A DNA stretch of 22,212 bases from a virus. The notes under the pieces are model-generated. The model saw nothing but the letters and a program-made list of their open reading frames with translations. It ran no database searches and had not been told where the DNA came from. The stretch spans positions 1 to 22,212 of IMG/VR virus record IMGVR_UViG_3300047178_000111. One strand, 5' to 3'. The first letter of the stretch is position 1; each line of letters starts with the position of its first letter. A program made the position numbers and the translations under genes. This document shows positions 2,417 to 12,036 of the stretch, in pieces.

Positions 2417-2452
2417 GTGCAGAATTTATGTATAGAGTGTCGATATGAGTGA
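2417..2452 (+). CDS. Possible 11-codon leader peptide upstream of the GroES-like gene
   Basis: A strong AAGGAG (2404-2409) stands 7 nt before GTG at 2417, which opens an 11-codon frame MQNLCIECRYE ending at 2450-2452. That stop is 8 nt inside the next gene, which starts at 2445 in another frame and has no good Shine-Dalgarno of its own. The arrangement suggests translational coupling, with ribosomes ending the leader and reinitiating at 2445. The CxxC in the peptide could be chance or the remnant of a zinc-binding protein. Confidence 0.3.
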   Translation: MQNLCIECRYE

Positions 2453-3278
2453 GTTGAAGCGAAGTCAGATAGGGAATCAGGCAGACGAGCAGGCTGCGTA
2501 TGAAAAGGGTGCGGATGCGTCTCAGATCAACGTCAGTGGCTTGCCGGAGGCGCGGGAATCGTTGGATGTGGATGCGGAGTATGTGGAGTCTGGGATTCAA
2601 TTGACTCCTCGGGACGCTTCGTTTTTTGAGCAGTTGGGCAGAGTGGAAGAGGGGCCGATCGATTTGCTTTCGGCTTCGTTGTTGGAGGAACCAGACGAGG
2701 TTGGTTTGGAGATTCGGCAGATTCATGGGGTGACGGTGCAGGCGGTGCCGGAAAGGTTGGGGGAGATTGCTACACGGAGTCCAAGAGAGCGGCTTGTTTG
2801 GTACCAGAACAGTTCCGAAGTGTTTGGGGCTGTGCTTGGTGATCGGATTGATGTTCTCAAGGATGTGCTGGAAAGCAGTTATTCGTGTAAGCCTTGCAAG
2901 GGTACTGGCAAGACATCGGAGGTCTGCCCGGTGTGTATGGGGATGAAGTACGAGGAGCAGGGTGGGCAGAAAGTTCCTTGCCGTGGGTGTAAGGTTTTGG
3001 GTTTTGGGATGGAAGTTCCCCATTCGTCTGGTTTCAAGAAGTGCGACAAGTGCGGTGGGTCGGGGTGGAAAGGTGGAGTGATTGTTCCTGAACAGGCGCA
3101 GCAGGAGGCGGTGACGGGGATTGTGGTTTCGATTGGCCCTGATTGCAAGCTAATGAAGATTGGGGATAGGGTTCTCCACTCGAAGTACGCCGGTCACACG
3201 CTGAAGATTGGGGAGAACAACCAGATTGTGACGATGCGCGAGTCGGAAGTGTTGAAGATTTTGAGGCAGCGTCAGTGA
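2445..3278 (+). CDS. GroES-like co-chaperonin with a DnaJ-type zinc finger inserted in the mobile loop
   Basis: 277 residues. The N-terminal 125 residues are acidic and unrecognised. At 131-140 LGDRIDVLKD resembles the first strand of Cpn10 (usually LGDRVLVKR). Next come four CxxC pairs, C148/C151, C161/C164, C179/C182 and C200/C203, the first and last followed by GxG as in the DnaJ zinc domain. Residues 210-276 resume the Cpn10 fold: GGVIVPE like the GroEL-binding mobile-loop end, a strand with SIGP, then KIGDRVLHSKYAG and a C-terminal strand with ESEVLKIL. The zinc finger therefore sits where the GroES mobile loop should be. Phage co-chaperonins such as T4 gp31 help host GroEL fold capsid protein. 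The position ahead of terminase and capsid genes fits that role, but GroEL binding is inferred. Confidence 0.75.
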   Translation: MSELKRSQIGNQADEQAAYEKGADASQINVSGLPEARESLDVDAEYVESGIQLTPRDASFFEQLGRVEEGPIDLLSASLLEEPDEVGLEIRQIHGVTVQAVPERLGEIATRSPRERLVWYQNSSEVFGAVLGDRIDVLKDVLESSYSCKPCKGTGKTSEVCPVCMGMKYEEQGGQKVPCRGCKVLGFGMEVPHSSGFKKCDKCGGSGWKGGVIVPEQAQQEAVTGIVVSIGPDCKLMKIGDRVLHSKYAGHTLKIGENNQIVTMRESEVLKILRQRQ

Positions 3279-3298: not shown

Positions 3299-3357
3299 CT
3301 TTGGCCAGAAGGCCGCGGCGTATGAATGGGATAAATTGGAATTTAGGAGACAAGAAA

Positions 3358-3624
3358 ATGTTGATTAGCCATTTTGAAACGCGCCCTGACTGGAAGTTGA
3401 TTGTCCAGTCCGTTCCTTGTCCCGTATGCGCTGCTGAACAAGAGCAGCCTTGCCGTAATCTTGGCGCGATTCCCGGGACATTGTATGCCGATTCTCCGCG
3501 CCATGACTGGCATCAGGAGCGCAAGGCGCAGGCAGTTTCCGCGTTTATGGCGTTTCAAGAGAAGCCTGCCGAAGTTACAGAGAAGGTCGAAGAGCCTGAA
3601 GAAGTGAAGCAGGTAAGTGAGTAA
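3358..3624 (+). CDS. Small phage zinc-binding protein (88 aa)
   Basis: 88 residues from the ATG at 3358, chosen because TAGGAG sits about 8 nt upstream; an in-frame TTG at 3301 has no such site. Residues 19-52 contain CPVC, then CRN and HDWHQER, spaced like the C-P-x-C / C-R / H-x-x-R pattern of small phage zinc-binding domains found near packaging genes. The C-terminal 30 residues are a charged Glu/Lys/Val tail, probably disordered. The stop overlaps the small terminase start by one nucleotide, so the two are translationally coupled. DNA binding or an accessory role in packaging is plausible but not shown. Confidence 0.6.
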   Translation: MLISHFETRPDWKLIVQSVPCPVCAAEQEQPCRNLGAIPGTLYADSPRHDWHQERKAQAVSAFMAFQEKPAEVTEKVEEPEEVKQVSE

Positions 3625-4073
3625 TGGCAGACGTAAACCTTTCAGATTCGGCGCGTGAGGCTCGTTGTCGCGAGCTTGCCTGTCTGGATTGGGCAAATAC
3701 TCCTTCGTCTGTCATCAAGGAACGGTTTGAAGGTATCAGCTACCAGACGCTCTCGAACTGGCGCGACTCGGATGTCTATAAAGAGCAGTCGGACGAACTT
3801 CGGAAGGCGTGGAGCGAGGAAATGCTTCGCCTTCCGAGTACAGGAGAGCTTCGCAAGAAGATTTCTCAAGGCATGTCCATTGCGGTAAATGTTTTGATCG
3901 AGTGCCTGACAAGTTCGGCGGCGTACAAAGACAAGATTTCGGCGGCTCGTTTGGTTTCGCAGATCGATGGTCGTTTCCTTCGCTCAGGTGAAGACGAGGA
4001 AGGCCGTTCGCGTGAGACGGATTCCTTGGCAGCGGAACTTCTGGATCACATCAAGCAGCAGAGGGCAAATTGA
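3624..4073 (+). CDS. terS: Terminase small subunit (probable)
   Basis: 149 residues. A helix-turn-helix-like segment at about 28-47 (SVIKERFEGISYQTLSNWRD) is the expected DNA-recognition part of a small terminase. A helical middle region (LRKAWSEEMLRLPSTGELRK... IAVNVLIECL) would form the oligomer, and an acidic, polar tail (residues 123-149) would contact the large subunit. It lies directly before terL and overlaps it by 4 nt, the standard order in tailed phages. Family assignment rests on this position and the HTH, because small terminases are poorly conserved. Its role would be recognition of phage DNA and delivery to the large subunit. Confidence 0.7.
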   Translation: MADVNLSDSAREARCRELACLDWANTPSSVIKERFEGISYQTLSNWRDSDVYKEQSDELRKAWSEEMLRLPSTGELRKKISQGMSIAVNVLIECLTSSAAYKDKISAARLVSQIDGRFLRSGEDEEGRSRETDSLAAELLDHIKQQRAN

Positions 4074-5920
4074 GCCTGGAAGCCCTCGCAGACACGCTTG
4101 CGCCTAAGCTGGCACAAGCTCCCGCGCACCGTTGGCAGACGATTGAGCTGACAGATTCGATGTCTACCTCGGTCAAGAAGGCAGCGGTTCGTCTGAATGC
4201 AATGGGTAGCCTTTTCTGGTTTAGCAAGTACGTGCTGATGCACAACCGTCTCAGTCCAAACTTCCATGGTTTGCTTTGTCGTGATCTTGAGCACGATTCG
4301 CTAAGACTTGCGTTGGAAGTGCCTCGCGATCATTTCAAAACGACGCTGGCAAGCGTTTCCTGCCCGATGTGGTGGGCGCTTCCGTTCAATGACGACGATG
4401 AAGAGTTGATGCGTAAGCTGGGGTATGGCGATCCGTGGATTCGCTGGATGCGTCGGGCGCACTATTCTTCTACGCGGACGATGATCGCCTCGGAAGTCTT
4501 GGGGAACGCTCGCAAGATTGGGGCGAAGATTTCCGGTCATTACGAGTCCAATGCTCTTTTCAGGATGCTTTTTCCTGAAATAATTCCAAAGAAGACAGAC
4601 AAGTGGAACCAAGACTCCATGACGCAGAACCGTCTGGACAACGAGTACCACGGTGAGGGAACATTTGATTTCATCGGCGTCAAAGGCGCGTTGCAGTCGA
4701 GACACTACGACAGGCAGGTCATTGACGATCCTGTCGGTGAAAAGGCCATCAACTCCGATCTGGTCATGGACACAACTATCCAATGGATTCAGAAACTCCC
4801 GGGTGCATTTGACTCAGACCCAAATGACCCCAATCGTATGGCCGACCAGCTATTCATTGGTAATCGATGGTCGAATCGAGATGTGGGTACTTGGCTGAGA
4901 AAGAACGTCTCAGGTATGCGGTTTGTGACGCATGATGCTGAAGGCGGATGCTGTGCAGAACATGTAGCCGGTACGCCAATCTTTCCTGAAGAGTTCACGA
5001 TGGAAAAACTGGCAGAGATTCGTTCCATCTTTGGCAGTTACTACTATGCAGCGCAGTACAGAAACAACCCGATTGATCCTGAAGCGGTACGGTTCAAGTC
5101 TTCATGGCTACGCAGGTTCACTATCAATGCGTTTGATGTGGGCGGTGTCTCGATTGCCAATTCGCAGCAGTTTGTGAGTACAAGAAATCCCGCCGATGTA
5201 TTGAAGATGCACGAAAAAGAGGAGATGGCGGGTGCCGTTCCTCAAAGACTCGTAAAAGCCATCTGCCACGAGACGCAATCAGGCGAAGTGCTTGATGACA
5301 TTCGTGCGGGTCAGTTGGAGCGCGTAGCTATCCTCGATCCTAACCACTCTGGTGAGGGTGGACGGTCGCGCCATGCAATTGTTGTCCTTGGGATGTACAA
5401 CAACCCACCTCAGCCTCGCAGAATTTACCTGCTGGACGTTTGGGCGGGTTCTACGACCTTCGATACGATGATTGAGAAACTGATTGGTACAAAGGAAGGT
5501 CATCGCGGACTCGCATTGAAGTGGAAGGTACATCACATCTACCTTGAGTCCGAAGTAGCTGGGCAGCAGGGGTGGCTGCGTTTCTTTCAGGATCGCGTTC
5601 GCAACATGGGGGCGCAGGCTAGTTTTACGGTACGGGGTCTAAAGACTGACCGCAGTGCTGGAGGTAAAGACAAGCGCATCATCGGCATGGAAGCTATCTA
5701 CGAAAACGGACTATTTTGGGTTCCTCGTACGGGAGCGGAACAGTTTTTGCAGGAATACGAGACATTTCCAAATGGATCAACAAAGGATATCTTGGACGTG
5801 ATTGGATACAGCCCTCAGACCTGGGGGATGGGTTCGGTAGAGAAAACAAGAGATTTTGTGCGTGAGGAAAACTCGCGGCGTTCGTCTATGATGCAATCAG
5901 TAGGAACCGCAGGATACTAA
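4070..5920 (+). CDS. terL: Terminase large subunit (packaging ATPase/nuclease)
   Basis: 616 residues. The N-terminal ATPase has a Walker A-type motif VPRDHFKTT (84-92) and a Walker B-like QVIDD (216-220). The C-terminal RNase H-fold nuclease shows the expected acidic residues in ILDPN (D423), YLESE (E493) and ILDVIGY (D576). The length is typical. The start is TTG at 4070, coupled to the small terminase stop (TTGA), with GAGGG 6 nt upstream; the next in-frame ATG is at 4160 and would remove about 30 residues. It pumps DNA into the prohead at the portal vertex and cuts the concatemer. The last six codons share an 18-nt near-identical sequence with the gene ending at 8184. Confidence 0.92.
   Translation: MSLEALADTLAPKLAQAPAHRWQTIELTDSMSTSVKKAAVRLNAMGSLFWFSKYVLMHNRLSPNFHGLLCRDLEHDSLRLALEVPRDHFKTTLASVSCPMWWALPFNDDDEELMRKLGYGDPWIRWMRRAHYSSTRTMIASEVLGNARKIGAKISGHYESNALFRMLFPEIIPKKTDKWNQDSMTQNRLDNEYHGEGTFDFIGVKGALQSRHYDRQVIDDPVGEKAINSDLVMDTTIQWIQKLPGAFDSDPNDPNRMADQLFIGNRWSNRDVGTWLRKNVSGMRFVTHDAEGGCCAEHVAGTPIFPEEFTMEKLAEIRSIFGSYYYAAQYRNNPIDPEAVRFKSSWLRRFTINAFDVGGVSIANSQQFVSTRNPADVLKMHEKEEMAGAVPQRLVKAICHETQSGEVLDDIRAGQLERVAILDPNHSGEGGRSRHAIVVLGMYNNPPQPRRIYLLDVWAGSTTFDTMIEKLIGTKEGHRGLALKWKVHHIYLESEVAGQQGWLRFFQDRVRNMGAQASFTVRGLKTDRSAGGKDKRIIGMEAIYENGLFWVPRTGAEQFLQEYETFPNGSTKDILDVIGYSPQTWGMGSVEKTRDFVREENSRRSSMMQSVGTAGY
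5903..5920 (+). repeat. 18-nt repeat at the 3' end of terL (copy 1)
   Basis: GGAACCGCAGGATACTAA here differs at one base from GGAAACGCAGGATACTAA at 8167-8184. Both copies end two genes at their stop codon and encode a final AGY. In each case an ATG follows within 1-2 nt, so the embedded AGGA can serve as a Shine-Dalgarno. Either functional convergence or a small duplication could explain it. Confidence 0.5.
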
Positions 5921-7846
5921 ATGCCCTTACCTGTTGAATTGCCGACAAGCAAGCACTTCCCCGCCGAACGTATGGTGGAGATAGACAAGTACGCCTTCGA
6001 CCGCCTCTCTGCCCTCAAGCAAAGCCTGTCGGACGTGCGCGAGCGCAAGATCACCCAATGGCGGCGTATCTACATGGGAATGCCGCGTGAAAAGGCGAAG
6101 TCCTTCCCTTGGCAGAATGCTTCCAACCTCGTCGTACAACTCGTAGGGTCTTTTGTCGATCAACTCAAAGCAAAGATTCTGATGAGCATCTTCGGCGTTG
6201 ACGATTTGTTTGAGGTTGGTGTCGTTGGAGAGTGGGAGCGCGACGAAAAGGCAGAAGAGCAGAAGGACGCTCTTCAGGAATGGCTCACCTTTTCCGGCTT
6301 GGAGCCGGGATACCTGAATCTCCTGCCAAAGTATTCCGCTTGGGTGTCCACGATGATTCGTTACGGCATGGGAGCGATTAAACTTCTTCCTGAGCGAACA
6401 GTCGAGCAAGTAGCGGCTACGATTGGATCAAATGGCCGTGTCGTTTTCGAAGAGCATGTACGACACGATGGCCCGGTAGCTCTTCCGCTTCAGTTTGAAG
6501 ATTTCTTGATCCCTTTGACGGTGGCGGAGATCGAGCGTTCCCCTTTTACGGCACAACGAGCGAGGATGTCGCGCTTCGACCTTGAATTGCTAAAGCACGA
6601 CAAGACCTATGACAAACTAGCTGTCGAAAAAGTTCTCAAGACTCCTGACCGTCAAGGCCCAGACCGCACGGATAGCGACATTCGCATGGACCAAGGCCAG
6701 CAAAATGGTTCTGGCGGAGAGACGCAGGAAGAGTGGGATATTTTTGAATGCTACTTCCCTTACTCGGTGGCAGGTAAGACGTTTCACCTGATCTATACGC
6801 TTCACTTAGAGACGAAAAGCGTACTCAAAGCTGTTTTCAACTGGCTTCCTGAAAACTCTATTCCGTATATCAAGGCTGTTCTTGGGTACGACGGCGAAAG
6901 GAGCTATGGGCTAGGCTTTTGTGAGATGCTGAAGGACTATCAGGAAGAGGTTTCCGCCATCCATAACCGGCGCGGCGATGCTTCTACCTTGTCCAACACG
7001 AATATCTTCCGCATTGCTTCTGGAACGCAGTTGGATTCGCAGTTTTCGGTGTATCCAAACGCTATTTTCCCCGGCGAAGATGGTGCTTTTGAGGTCATTC
7101 CGCTGGGTCGGCAGGCAAACGAGACGATCAAAGATGAGCAAATGACCCTAAATCTGGCAACAGACAGGGCTGGTGTTGGGCCAAGCTCTTCCGGTTCCGG
7201 CGCTGGTACTGTCTCAAAAAAGGGTGCTTACTCTGCCATGGGAACGTATTCGACCATGCAGGAAGGCGACACCCGAGCAAACTTGAACAAAACAGAGTTC
7301 CGACAGGCGCACATCACTCTTGGAAGGCAAAAAGTCCTTTATGATGCCCATTTCGGGATACCTCAGAGAGATATTGCCGCCTTTGGGAAACGTGGGCCAG
7401 CCTTGGAGAAGGCTCTTGAGAACATCAAGAAGCGTCGTCTTGCATTGCCGGTTCGCCCGGCTACCGGGTCGATCAACAAGGAAGTGGAAAAGCAGAACTT
7501 GATGCTCCTCCTGAACAACGTACGCGCTCACTGGCAGATGGAAGCGCAGATGATTCAGGCGGCGGAGAATCCCATGCTCTCTCCTATGCAGAAAGACTAT
7601 CTTCTGCAAACGGTGATGGCTGGAAACATGCTGATGACCAAGATTATCAAAGACTTTGGTATCAGCGATCCATCGGCCATTCTTCCGACGCCAGCAGGCA
7701 TCGAGAATGCTTCAAAGATGGCGCATCAGGCGGCAGAGCAGCATTCCGAACAGCAAATGCACCAGCCGCAGGGTGGACAGCCGCAAGCACAAGGGGAACA
7801 ACCGCAGGGTGGTCAACCAGAGGCTAAGCAAGGTGCAGCACAATGA
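5921..7846 (+). CDS. Portal protein
   Basis: 641 residues, starting at the base after the terL stop. The position after terL, the length and the N-terminal pattern (helical region, then FPWQNASN and a hydrophobic helix at about 60-95) fit the portal family of podoviruses, whose 12-mer forms the DNA entry channel and binds the terminase. The central part alternates strands and helices; a helical region around 400-520 probably forms stem and crown. The last 35 residues are a low-complexity Gln/Gly/Pro tail with repeated QPQGGQP-like units, probably disordered. The AGGA in the 3' end of terL serves as ribosome site. No catalytic activity is expected. Confidence 0.85.
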   Translation: MPLPVELPTSKHFPAERMVEIDKYAFDRLSALKQSLSDVRERKITQWRRIYMGMPREKAKSFPWQNASNLVVQLVGSFVDQLKAKILMSIFGVDDLFEVGVVGEWERDEKAEEQKDALQEWLTFSGLEPGYLNLLPKYSAWVSTMIRYGMGAIKLLPERTVEQVAATIGSNGRVVFEEHVRHDGPVALPLQFEDFLIPLTVAEIERSPFTAQRARMSRFDLELLKHDKTYDKLAVEKVLKTPDRQGPDRTDSDIRMDQGQQNGSGGETQEEWDIFECYFPYSVAGKTFHLIYTLHLETKSVLKAVFNWLPENSIPYIKAVLGYDGERSYGLGFCEMLKDYQEEVSAIHNRRGDASTLSNTNIFRIASGTQLDSQFSVYPNAIFPGEDGAFEVIPLGRQANETIKDEQMTLNLATDRAGVGPSSSGSGAGTVSKKGAYSAMGTYSTMQEGDTRANLNKTEFRQAHITLGRQKVLYDAHFGIPQRDIAAFGKRGPALEKALENIKKRRLALPVRPATGSINKEVEKQNLMLLLNNVRAHWQMEAQMIQAAENPMLSPMQKDYLLQTVMAGNMLMTKIIKDFGISDPSAILPTPAGIENASKMAHQAAEQHSEQQMHQPQGGQPQAQGEQPQGGQPEAKQGAAQ

Positions 7847-10457: not shown

Positions 10458-11417
10458 GTGTCCATGGTTCGTAATCAGTTCTATCAGGCGATGTCTATCG
10501 ATGTTGCCCACAACTTCATCGAGTTCCTGGACTTGAAGCAGCGTTCGGTGGAGTTCCGCTCCGTCTTCAACGTGCTACCTTCCAAGAAGGCCTATGAGGA
10601 CGCCGTTCATTACGCGGGTACCGGCCCCGCACAGCCAAAGGGTGAAGGCGAGCCTGTCTATTACGACAACCTGATTCAGGGTGGCACCCGTCGTTACATC
10701 CATCAGACTTACGGTCTTGGCGTTCGCATGAGCTATGAGCTGATGCAGGACGATCAGACGGGCATGATGGAGCAATCGCCCAAGTCTCTCGTGCAGGGTC
10801 ACATCTTTGCACAAGAGTACACGGCTGGCAACGTCTTCAACCTCGGATTTTCCTCGACGGGTACCCTTACCGATGACGGTGTTTCACTGTTCAACAACCA
10901 GCATCCTCTGCTGGGTGGGAATACAGCCACAAACATCGCTCCGGGTGCTGGAAACTTCTCGACGGCGGCGGGTACCTATCCCAACCGCCCTGCTGTTGAC
11001 GCCGATCTGTCTTTTACCTCTCTTCAGTATGCCACGATGACCTTCCAGCGTATGCCCAACGCTCGCGGCATCTCGGTAGCGACCAAGCCCAAGCACCTGC
11101 GTATCCCGCCTGAGCTCGAGTACATCGCGATTGAACTTCTGGGTTCCGCTGGCAAGCCTTACACTTCTGATAACGAAGTGAACGCACTCGTGGCGGCAAA
11201 CCTGACGTACGATGTTGGCCATTACTACACCTCGCCGTCAGCATGGTATTTGACCGGCAACAAGGATGAGCATCGTTTGATGTTCTACGAGCGTCAGGCA
11301 ATCTACGGTGATTACGACCGCGACTTCGATCAGCAGGCACTGAAGTTCCTGGCGATTAGCCGGTACAGTGCCGGAGCTGATACGTGGATCAACACGTTCG
11401 GAAGCATGGGCCCTTAA
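10458..11417 (+). CDS. Major capsid protein (probable)
   Basis: 319 residues. The GTG at 10458 is chosen because AGGAGG (10444-10449) is 8 nt upstream; an in-frame ATG at 10464 would be 14 nt away. The sequence resembles the Mu gpT-like branch of HK97-fold capsid proteins: an N-terminal helix, FRSVFNVLPSKKAYEDAVHYAGTGP (44-68, given here as a region), then a strand-rich middle containing the GTRRYIHQTYGLGVRMSYEL-type segment at 95-114, a NNQHPLLGG loop near 147-155 and a C-terminal WYLTGNKDEHRLMFYE region near 257-272. Position after the decoration-like protein and size support this. It would form the icosahedral shell and is the expected client of the GroES-like protein. No separate protease gene is visible. 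Confidence 0.8.
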   Translation: MSMVRNQFYQAMSIDVAHNFIEFLDLKQRSVEFRSVFNVLPSKKAYEDAVHYAGTGPAQPKGEGEPVYYDNLIQGGTRRYIHQTYGLGVRMSYELMQDDQTGMMEQSPKSLVQGHIFAQEYTAGNVFNLGFSSTGTLTDDGVSLFNNQHPLLGGNTATNIAPGAGNFSTAAGTYPNRPAVDADLSFTSLQYATMTFQRMPNARGISVATKPKHLRIPPELEYIAIELLGSAGKPYTSDNEVNALVAANLTYDVGHYYTSPSAWYLTGNKDEHRLMFYERQAIYGDYDRDFDQQALKFLAISRYSAGADTWINTFGSMGP

Positions 11418-11451: not shown

Positions 11452-11484
11452 TATGTTATAAAAAGTGATAGAATAAGTCCTATG
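11429..11484 (+). repeat. 17-bp perfect inverted repeat enclosing the HNH start codon
   Basis: CATAGGACTTATTCTAT (11429-11445) is the exact reverse complement of ATAGAATAAGTCCTATG (11468-11484). The right arm ends with the ATG (11482-11484) of the HNH gene. Inside the 22-nt loop TATAAC (11446-11451) pairs with GTTATA (11455-11460). In RNA read through from the capsid gene the start codon would be buried in a long stem. No U-run follows, so termination is less likely. Confidence 0.75.
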
Positions 11485-12036
11485 GAAACTAGATTTTGTG
11501 TTGTATGCGAAGAGACGAAGCCCGCATCAAAGTTTGGTTCTGCTGGGAAGAGAGTAAATGTTGATGGAGAGCCTTACAAAAACCACCGCTGCATTGCCTG
11601 CCAAGGTAAAAGAACTAGGGCTAAAAACCGTCTCGATTTCTTTTCGGCGTATGGTGATTCTTGCTCTTGCTGTGGAGAGGATGATTTCCGATTTCTTACT
11701 CTTGATCATGTTGCGGGCGATGGTCGGAATGATAGGAAAACCCTCAAATGTCATCAAATATACGCTCTCGCTCGAAGAAAAGGATACCCAAATTGCTACC
11801 AGATTTTATGTTTCAACTGTAATTCTGGGCGATCAGCGAATGGTGGAATTTGTCCACACAAAGATGTTATATCTAAAGACGAAGCAAAAGAGCGTATGCG
11901 GAAATATGCTGCACCTATTGGTCGCAGCCATGTGGAAAGCAATCACGCTGGAAGATTTTCAAAAGGATTTGATGCTCGCCGCGATCCCGTAAAGGCTTGG
12001 AAAAAATCTGCGGAGGTTAGGCGTAGGGAGTTTTGA
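11482..12036 (+). CDS. HNH endonuclease, probable free-standing homing endonuclease
   Basis: 184 residues with an N-terminal zinc knuckle pair (C6/C9 and C37/C40), then the HNH part: C61/C64, LDHV at 74-77 with the catalytic-type D75-H76, LCFNCN at 109-114 with C110/C113, and a CPH at 124-126. This matches phage HNH nucleases with a GDG and LCFNCN signature. There is no Shine-Dalgarno, and the ATG is the end of a 17-bp stem. The gene is visibly AT-richer than its neighbours and uses AGA/AGG more often, indicating recent insertion between major capsid and the next structural gene. Proteins of this kind nick cognate phage genomes near their own insertion site. The C-terminal 45 residues are basic and may bind DNA. 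Confidence 0.8.
   Translation: METRFCVVCEETKPASKFGSAGKRVNVDGEPYKNHRCIACQGKRTRAKNRLDFFSAYGDSCSCCGEDDFRFLTLDHVAGDGRNDRKTLKCHQIYALARRKGYPNCYQILCFNCNSGRSANGGICPHKDVISKDEAKERMRKYAAPIGRSHVESNHAGRFSKGFDARRDPVKAWKKSAEVRRREF

Follow-up and report, generated by a model that had tools for sequence, protein, structure and literature searches.

In protein folding, the mobile loop of GroES forms a contact that is both central and highly constrained, and the flexibility of this loop sets the affinity of GroES for GroEL. A metal-binding extension is present in the GroES of H. pylori, where it is C-terminal and not in the loop. Among phages, T4 gp31 is essential for folding of the T4 capsid protein and is built without the roof loops (PMC6318259), and pelagiphages of the HTVC023P type have GroES in a core of 13 genes (PMC9599517). 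In the window, i.e., the whole stretch of viral DNA analysed here (22,212 bases, IMG/VR record IMGVR_UViG_3300047178_000111), we found a gene whose product is almost certainly a Cpn10 protein carrying a zinc-type domain within the mobile loop (Table 1). With a probability of roughly 0.6, we read this product as a phage co-chaperonin that caps host GroEL and folds the capsid protein, the N-terminal arm of its loop being replaced by a zinc-binding four-CxxC domain.

The open reading frame encodes a 277-AA product from the ATG at 2445, and no earlier in-frame start was present upstream. The N-terminal region of the protein contains the motifs LGNxAxExGQxExGADFExIN (near residues 10–30), LLxAQLxEEPE (74–84) and RExLVWY (114–120), has a mean pairwise identity of 36% in the family alignment A2, and gave no convincing match in Pfam, PHROG or PDB. 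It is followed by LGDRIDVLKD (residues 131–140), four CxxC pairs (C148/151, C161/164, C179/182, and C200/203) and GGVIVPE (210–216). As the order is strand 1, zinc domain, tripeptide and barrel, the insertion occupies the N-terminal arm of the mobile loop and leaves the tripeptide arm intact. An earlier note on this DNA had placed four CxxC pairs within residues 148–203, which was confirmed, and an insertion just N-terminal to the GroEL-binding tripeptide, which was upheld by a family of 13 proteins. Its title, that the zinc finger stands in place of the mobile loop, is right for the replaced N-terminal arm and not for the tripeptide arm, which is retained.

Table 1. Coordinates of the zinc-form Cpn10 gene, its parts and neighbouring genes in the window.
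Feature	Position	Strand	Basis
ZnF-Cpn10 gene	2445..3278	+	Pfam Cpn10 E=1.9e-10; 13-member family alignment A2
N-terminal region, residues 1–126, family-specific	2445..2822	+	conserved in A2
Cpn10 first strand (GDRIDVLKD) and start of mobile loop, residues 127–144	2823..2876	+	PSSM, HMM, hhalign
Inserted four-CxxC zinc-type domain, residues 145–208, last residues GSGW	2877..3068	+	8 Cys invariant in 13/13
Rest of Cpn10 barrel, residues 209–277	3069..3275	+	Pfam Cpn10, hhalign, model of relative L145
VIV, residues 212–214, equivalent of the GroEL-binding tripeptide, followed by Pro	3078..3086	+	alignment with plain Cpn10s
Short turn GPDCKLMKI, residues 231–239	3135..3161	+	9 residues in 13/13 members
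Small zinc-binding phage protein, PF24623 Phage_zn_bind_8	3358..3624	+	Pfam E=4e-7; syntenic in relatives
Small terminase-like protein	3624..4073	+	precedes TerL, conserved in relatives
Terminase large subunit	4070..5920	+	phrog_38 E=2.4e-51
Portal protein, SU10-like	5921..7846	+	PF23899 E=2.3e-15
Major capsid protein, proposed client	10458..11417	+	phrog_371 E=2.8e-11

The Cpn10 resemblance proposed for residues 210–276 was confirmed by Pfam (PF00166, residues 209–271, E=1.9e-10, 41.1 bits vs. a cut-off of 21.1) and by the PHROG GroES family (E=3.5e-10), and the best matches in a PDB sequence search, Cpn20 and several GroES chains, covered the same C-terminal part. Family cut-offs were exceeded over the C-terminal quarter of the window protein only, and those of NCBIfam GroES were not reached (37.6 of 96 bits). 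All 13 family members gave a Cpn10 match. Comparison of the family with 16 ordinary Cpn10s using hhalign, a profile-profile check of the kind suggested in the earlier note, was significant in local mode (E=5.5e-15). Forced global alignment (E=2.3e-16) put GDRIDV on the GroES first strand and left the zinc domain as a single insertion. Another hhalign comparison (A3 vs. L069) was circular and was not counted as evidence. The tripeptide is [VI][VI][VI]P in 13/13 sequences, i.e., three beta-branched aliphatics, and aligns with GGIVL/GGIIIP of the plain Cpn10s. The roof hairpin, a typical though not a defining feature of Cpn10/GroES, is absent; the segment at residues 231–239, which we take to be the place of the hairpin in E. 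coli GroES, is nine residues long in every member.

For the first strand, an HMM of ordinary Cpn10s gave a second hit, weak and collinear, in 10/13 members, the window protein not being among them. Using a first-strand PSSM, the same place was the best-scoring N-terminal stretch in 13/13 members, and the score of the window protein alone was not above shuffles (p=0.43). The Cpn10-like strand claimed at residues 131–140 is convincing at the level of the family, by PSSM, HMM and global alignment, and weak in the window protein alone, as judged from sequence.

Structure prediction with AlphaFold2 of the full-length window protein gave pLDDT values of about 70–91 for blocks of the zinc region, mostly <50 for the barrel and <50 for most of the N-terminal region, and a fold search with this model returned no useful match. 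The C-terminal part of the relative L145, 52% identical to the window protein there, was modelled with a pLDDT of 78.8 and showed the GroES barrel strands including strand 1 (11–16, 96–103, 115–118, 124–128, 131–137, and 141–145), its input alignment including two plain Cpn10s that could steer the prediction. The top 32 matches of this model in the PDB were all Cpn10-type chains, many of them over 141–154 columns across the insertion. They included Cpn10s of Thermus, human mitochondria, Hydrogenophilus, Mycobacterium, and Xanthomonas (E from 5.9e-5), as well as T4 gp31 (1g31, E=4.2e-3), and the best named matches in a viral library were mostly phage GroES proteins. A single barrel built from the counterparts of residues 131–140 and 210–276, as envisaged earlier, is seen in the L145 model with its two aligned plain Cpn10s, the full-length window model being of low confidence in this part.

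No relatives were obtained when DNA was scanned with the full-length protein or the C-terminus alone, because relatives are at most about 50% identical. Instead, a degenerate DNA pattern running from the last CxxC pair to the tripeptide (CxxCxGxG-xx-GG[VI]xxP) found four loci, all of them true relatives, further ones were found with another pattern spanning pairs 3 and 4, and a genome collection supplied one more. The search for the same domain order elsewhere, proposed in the earlier note, yielded in total 12 further proteins from uncultured phages, 33–53% identical to the window protein, so that A2 holds 13 distinct sequences. A2 shows no variation at the eight cysteines, at the proline that follows the tripeptide, or in the barrel motifs GDRV and AG. 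Conservation is highest in the tripeptide and Cpn10 core, with a mean identity of 58% for loop and barrel vs. 36% for the N-terminus. A barrel-only pattern that does not require the zinc domain (GDRV.HS[KR][FY]AG) found 17 loci, 16 with the zinc form and one ordinary Cpn10 (L169). The restriction of above-cut-off matches to the C-terminal quarter could be taken for an artefact in which a GroES fragment was joined to a cysteine-rich one by chance or misassembly; but 13 distinct sequences, taken from different assemblies and flanked by conserved genes, show this order, and the family refutes such an artefact, to which we leave practically no probability.

Several candidates were rejected. A looser pattern returned mostly unrelated phage structural proteins with C..CxGTGWxGGY, and a match in Streptomyces phage BeardedLady was antisense to annotated genes and spurious. 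An archaeal host, considered because the 3.3-kb scaffold with the relative L011 had been binned into a Methanoregulaceae MAG, is doubtful: the gene was absent from the other Methanomicrobiales genomes drawn (150 searched in all), so that misbinning is likely. In a contig of this MAG (L185, 1594–3574), a plain GroES (106 aa) is directly followed by GroEL (555 aa) with nuclease-like and vWA-like neighbours in phage-looking DNA, possibly a phage groESL pair. A virion-type protein with C.C...C..CYGTGWVGGYEGP was also seen in many phages, among them L012, L017, L025, and L051; it is a zinc-knuckle structural protein of wide distribution, and its motif resembles co-chaperonin pair 4 plus GG. A terminase scan found no sister phages, and no intermediate between plain and zinc-form Cpn10 was found. 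The statement that no GroES with such an insertion had been described was sustained, none being found in the full-text literature, where subscription journals are partly covered; as far as found, the domain arrangement is new and previously undescribed.

The inserted domain resembles the DnaJ zinc domain at the level of motifs. Strict CxxCxGxG is present in the window protein at pairs 1 and 4 only, pair 2 being CPVCMGM and pair 3 CRGCKVLGFG; the DnaJ-like GxG spacing claimed earlier applies to the former two pairs and not to the latter two. The spacing between pairs is 13/18/21, vs. about 17/22/14 in E. coli DnaJ. Pfam DnaJ_CXXCXGXG scored 13.1–15.6 bits on the window, below its cut-off of 32.7, with E=0.12 for the full-length protein and 0.02 for the excised domain. 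In the family, this model matched 12/13 full-length members at E<=1 (best 1.4e-5) and 9/9 excised domains (best 1.1e-6), and was the most frequent weak match. PDB profile matches to DnaJ were marginal (E 0.04–0.2) and mainly over the first two pairs, RtpA/anti-TRAP scored about as well as DnaJ for the zinc domain, one member showed a weak zinc-motif likeness to antitermination protein Q, and Pfam gave no match to a J domain (HPD) in the window protein. Since RtpA/anti-TRAP is similar in score and the pair spacing is unlike that of DnaJ, we use the term DnaJ-type without assignment to the DnaJ family. Homology to DnaJ is weak and of motif level as far as sequence comparison goes, and of the DnaJ zinc finger in the earlier note this much stands. 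The phrog_37414 family was rejected as a precedent for the same order; it matches most control genomes and hardly the relatives, mainly through the zinc motif. All eight cysteines are invariant in 13/13 members, the loop that joins pairs 2 and 3 is of variable length, and the four-CxxC domain is predicted to bind zinc.

Two readings of this domain can be weighed on these data. With four CxxC motifs (two of them CxxCxGxG), a recurrent weak match to DnaJ_CXXCXGXG and a suitable position beside the GroEL contact, it could bind unfolded capsid protein, in the way the DnaJ zinc region binds its substrate, and hand it to the GroEL cavity, which the same protein then caps, along the lines of the earlier note. 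Seven client-binding modules would surround the mouth of the chaperonin and feed nascent capsid protein into the cage, making the protein a co-chaperonin with a built-in substrate receptor. We find this doubtful in view of the Pfam score below cut-off, the marginal DnaJ matches confined mainly to two pairs, the equal match to RtpA/anti-TRAP, the deviating pair 3 and the lack of a J domain. In the other reading, the domain serves structure or specificity alone: it stiffens the disordered loop arm and tunes affinity or restricts the protein to its host's GroEL. The conservation of all cysteines despite the variable pair 2–3 loop is consistent with this, as are the gap of only eight residues between C203 and V212 in the window protein and the GW there, invariant in all members; we regard it as a tangible possibility, at somewhat below even odds.

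The gene stands before the terminase and capsid genes, a position noted earlier and upheld here by a block conserved in relatives: the order zinc-form Cpn10, small zinc-binding protein, TerS-like protein, TerL, portal, head genes and capsid is largely kept where contigs reach. The reading frame of the Phage_zn_bind_8 neighbour is listed from a TTG at 3301, its likely start being the ATG at 3358 behind TTTAGGAG, and the small terminase-like protein gave no confident Pfam or PHROG family. The packaging block is inverted in L003 and L010, where the strand that carries the terminase (and portal) genes is opposite to that of the co-chaperonin. Exactly one Cpn10, the zinc form, was present in each of 15 viral records (15/15 above the Pfam cut-off), and no Cpn60/GroEL gene was found in these records, five of which span 40–49 kb and which are possibly incomplete. 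Two further genes of the window carry cysteine motifs. A 155-aa ORF at 1399–1866 ends in a small zinc-ribbon-like motif (CRECEKPM...CVDMSC) and is the third such gene in the vicinity, counting the co-chaperonin and the gene at 3358–3624; its end also matches upstream of the co-chaperonin gene in L011. Directly after the capsid gene, a 184-aa ORF (11482–12036) with several CxxC motifs has the look of an HNH endonuclease and is placed as a free-standing homing endonuclease might be.

A link to the capsid protein comes from those GenBank phages whose major capsid protein is homologous to that of the window (21 records, 26–33% identity). One Cpn10 was present in 14/14 of those checked, in most of them a few genes from the capsid gene; in vir526 it precedes the large terminase, like the window gene, and its position in ct7ZZ929 is elsewhere in the genome. 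One such plain Cpn10 matched 18 of 50,697 phage records at E<=1e-5, mostly from the same groups. As the records are related, this co-occurrence is an association and not a set of independent trials, and as such it strengthens the fit with capsid folding suggested earlier. The dedication to the capsid appears as a genomic association, and the window's co-chaperonin is both phage-encoded and roofless. In the three relatives where it was seen (L008, L127, and L157), the capsid protein is 82–94% identical to that of the window, and the co-chaperonins are only 39–52% identical. The proposed client is unusually conserved also in comparison with portal, terminase and co-chaperonin taken together (about 39–72%). 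The mobile loops of the plain Cpn10s of these phages are without cysteines, and the simplest account is therefore that the zinc domain was inserted later, in the lineage of the window. Loops of phage Cpn10s are highly variable: the mobile loop in the Cpn10 of the QDWS535 GenBank phage (L166, 3531–3872) is degenerate, and the ordinary Cpn10 of L169 (6011–6367) has some 20 residues inserted in the roof region. In Caudoviricetes sp. vir526 (L175, 1027–1383; host Methanomicrobiales), the same gene order includes a plain roofless Cpn10 before TerL.

A function independent of GroEL, with the Cpn10 fold reused for head assembly or nucleic-acid binding and the zinc domain on DNA or RNA, would accord with the family-specific N-terminal region of about 126 residues, the weak likeness of the zinc motif to anti-TRAP (and to antitermination protein Q in one member), and a gene that adjoins those of the terminase. 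Yet it is the tripeptide and Cpn10 core that are best conserved, not the N-terminus, the three tripeptide positions are aliphatic in 13/13 members, and phages with homologous capsids retain an ordinary Cpn10; we consider such a function improbable. Given the conserved head-gene block and the 14/14 co-occurrence of Cpn10 and capsid, the protein is most likely a phage co-chaperonin that serves capsid folding by the GroEL of the host. It probably caps GroEL, and the capsid protein may well be its main client.

As a co-chaperonin, the protein would form a presumably heptameric ring that caps host GroEL via the aliphatic tripeptide and helps phage head proteins to fold, above all the major capsid protein. 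A putative zinc-binding domain of about 60 residues would end directly at each tripeptide, so that seven zinc domains would ring the GroEL contact; capping would require that the loop can still enter the GroEL groove with this domain attached. The domain may stiffen the loop and/or contact the client or the GroEL apical domains, rather than being merely tolerated. With the roof loop missing as in T4 gp31, the dome would stay open; the size of the client does not explain this, because a capsid protein of 319 aa needs no larger cage. A folded zinc domain in the loop with the tripeptide kept would mean that loop disorder is replaceable, and makes its role directly testable. It also suggests a new viral way of steering a general folding machine of the host to the virus's own capsid protein, in a capsid lineage (phages of several marine, freshwater, and other hosts) that seems to need a dedicated co-chaperonin throughout.

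Compared with GroES/Cpn10 (PF00166), the phage protein has a significant domain match, the same strand order, an aliphatic tripeptide and, in the L145 model, a single barrel, but differs in its zinc-type loop domain (~60 residues), its N-terminal extension (~126 residues) and the absence of a roof hairpin. T4 gp31 (1g31) is likewise a phage-encoded replacement of GroES without roof loops; unlike the window protein, it has a longer flexible loop of 22 residues (PMC6318259) and no zinc domain. The plain Cpn10s of the HTVC023P, CRP-901, Caulobacter RW, and Pag-Yong1 type occur with a homologous major capsid protein as well, yet their loops are without CxxC and their genes usually lie between portal and capsid, whereas that of the window is before the terminase, vir526 being the exception. 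The DnaJ zinc domain (PF00684) shares the four CxxC pairs, two CxxCxGxG motifs and a weak profile similarity, and the window protein differs from DnaJ by the missing J domain, the deviating pair 3, the 13/18/21 spacing and a score below cut-off. Chloroplast Cpn20 (7ekq_R) is the best PDB sequence match of the family profile (E=6e-16) and also has a short roof in its first domain; it consists of two Cpn10 domains in tandem with no zinc domain. BSD2, a chloroplast protein with a DnaJ-type zinc domain, is a Rubisco chaperone that acts on a chaperonin client. It offers a conceptual parallel, with negligible sequence similarity (E=0.68), as a separate protein that is not joined to a co-chaperonin.
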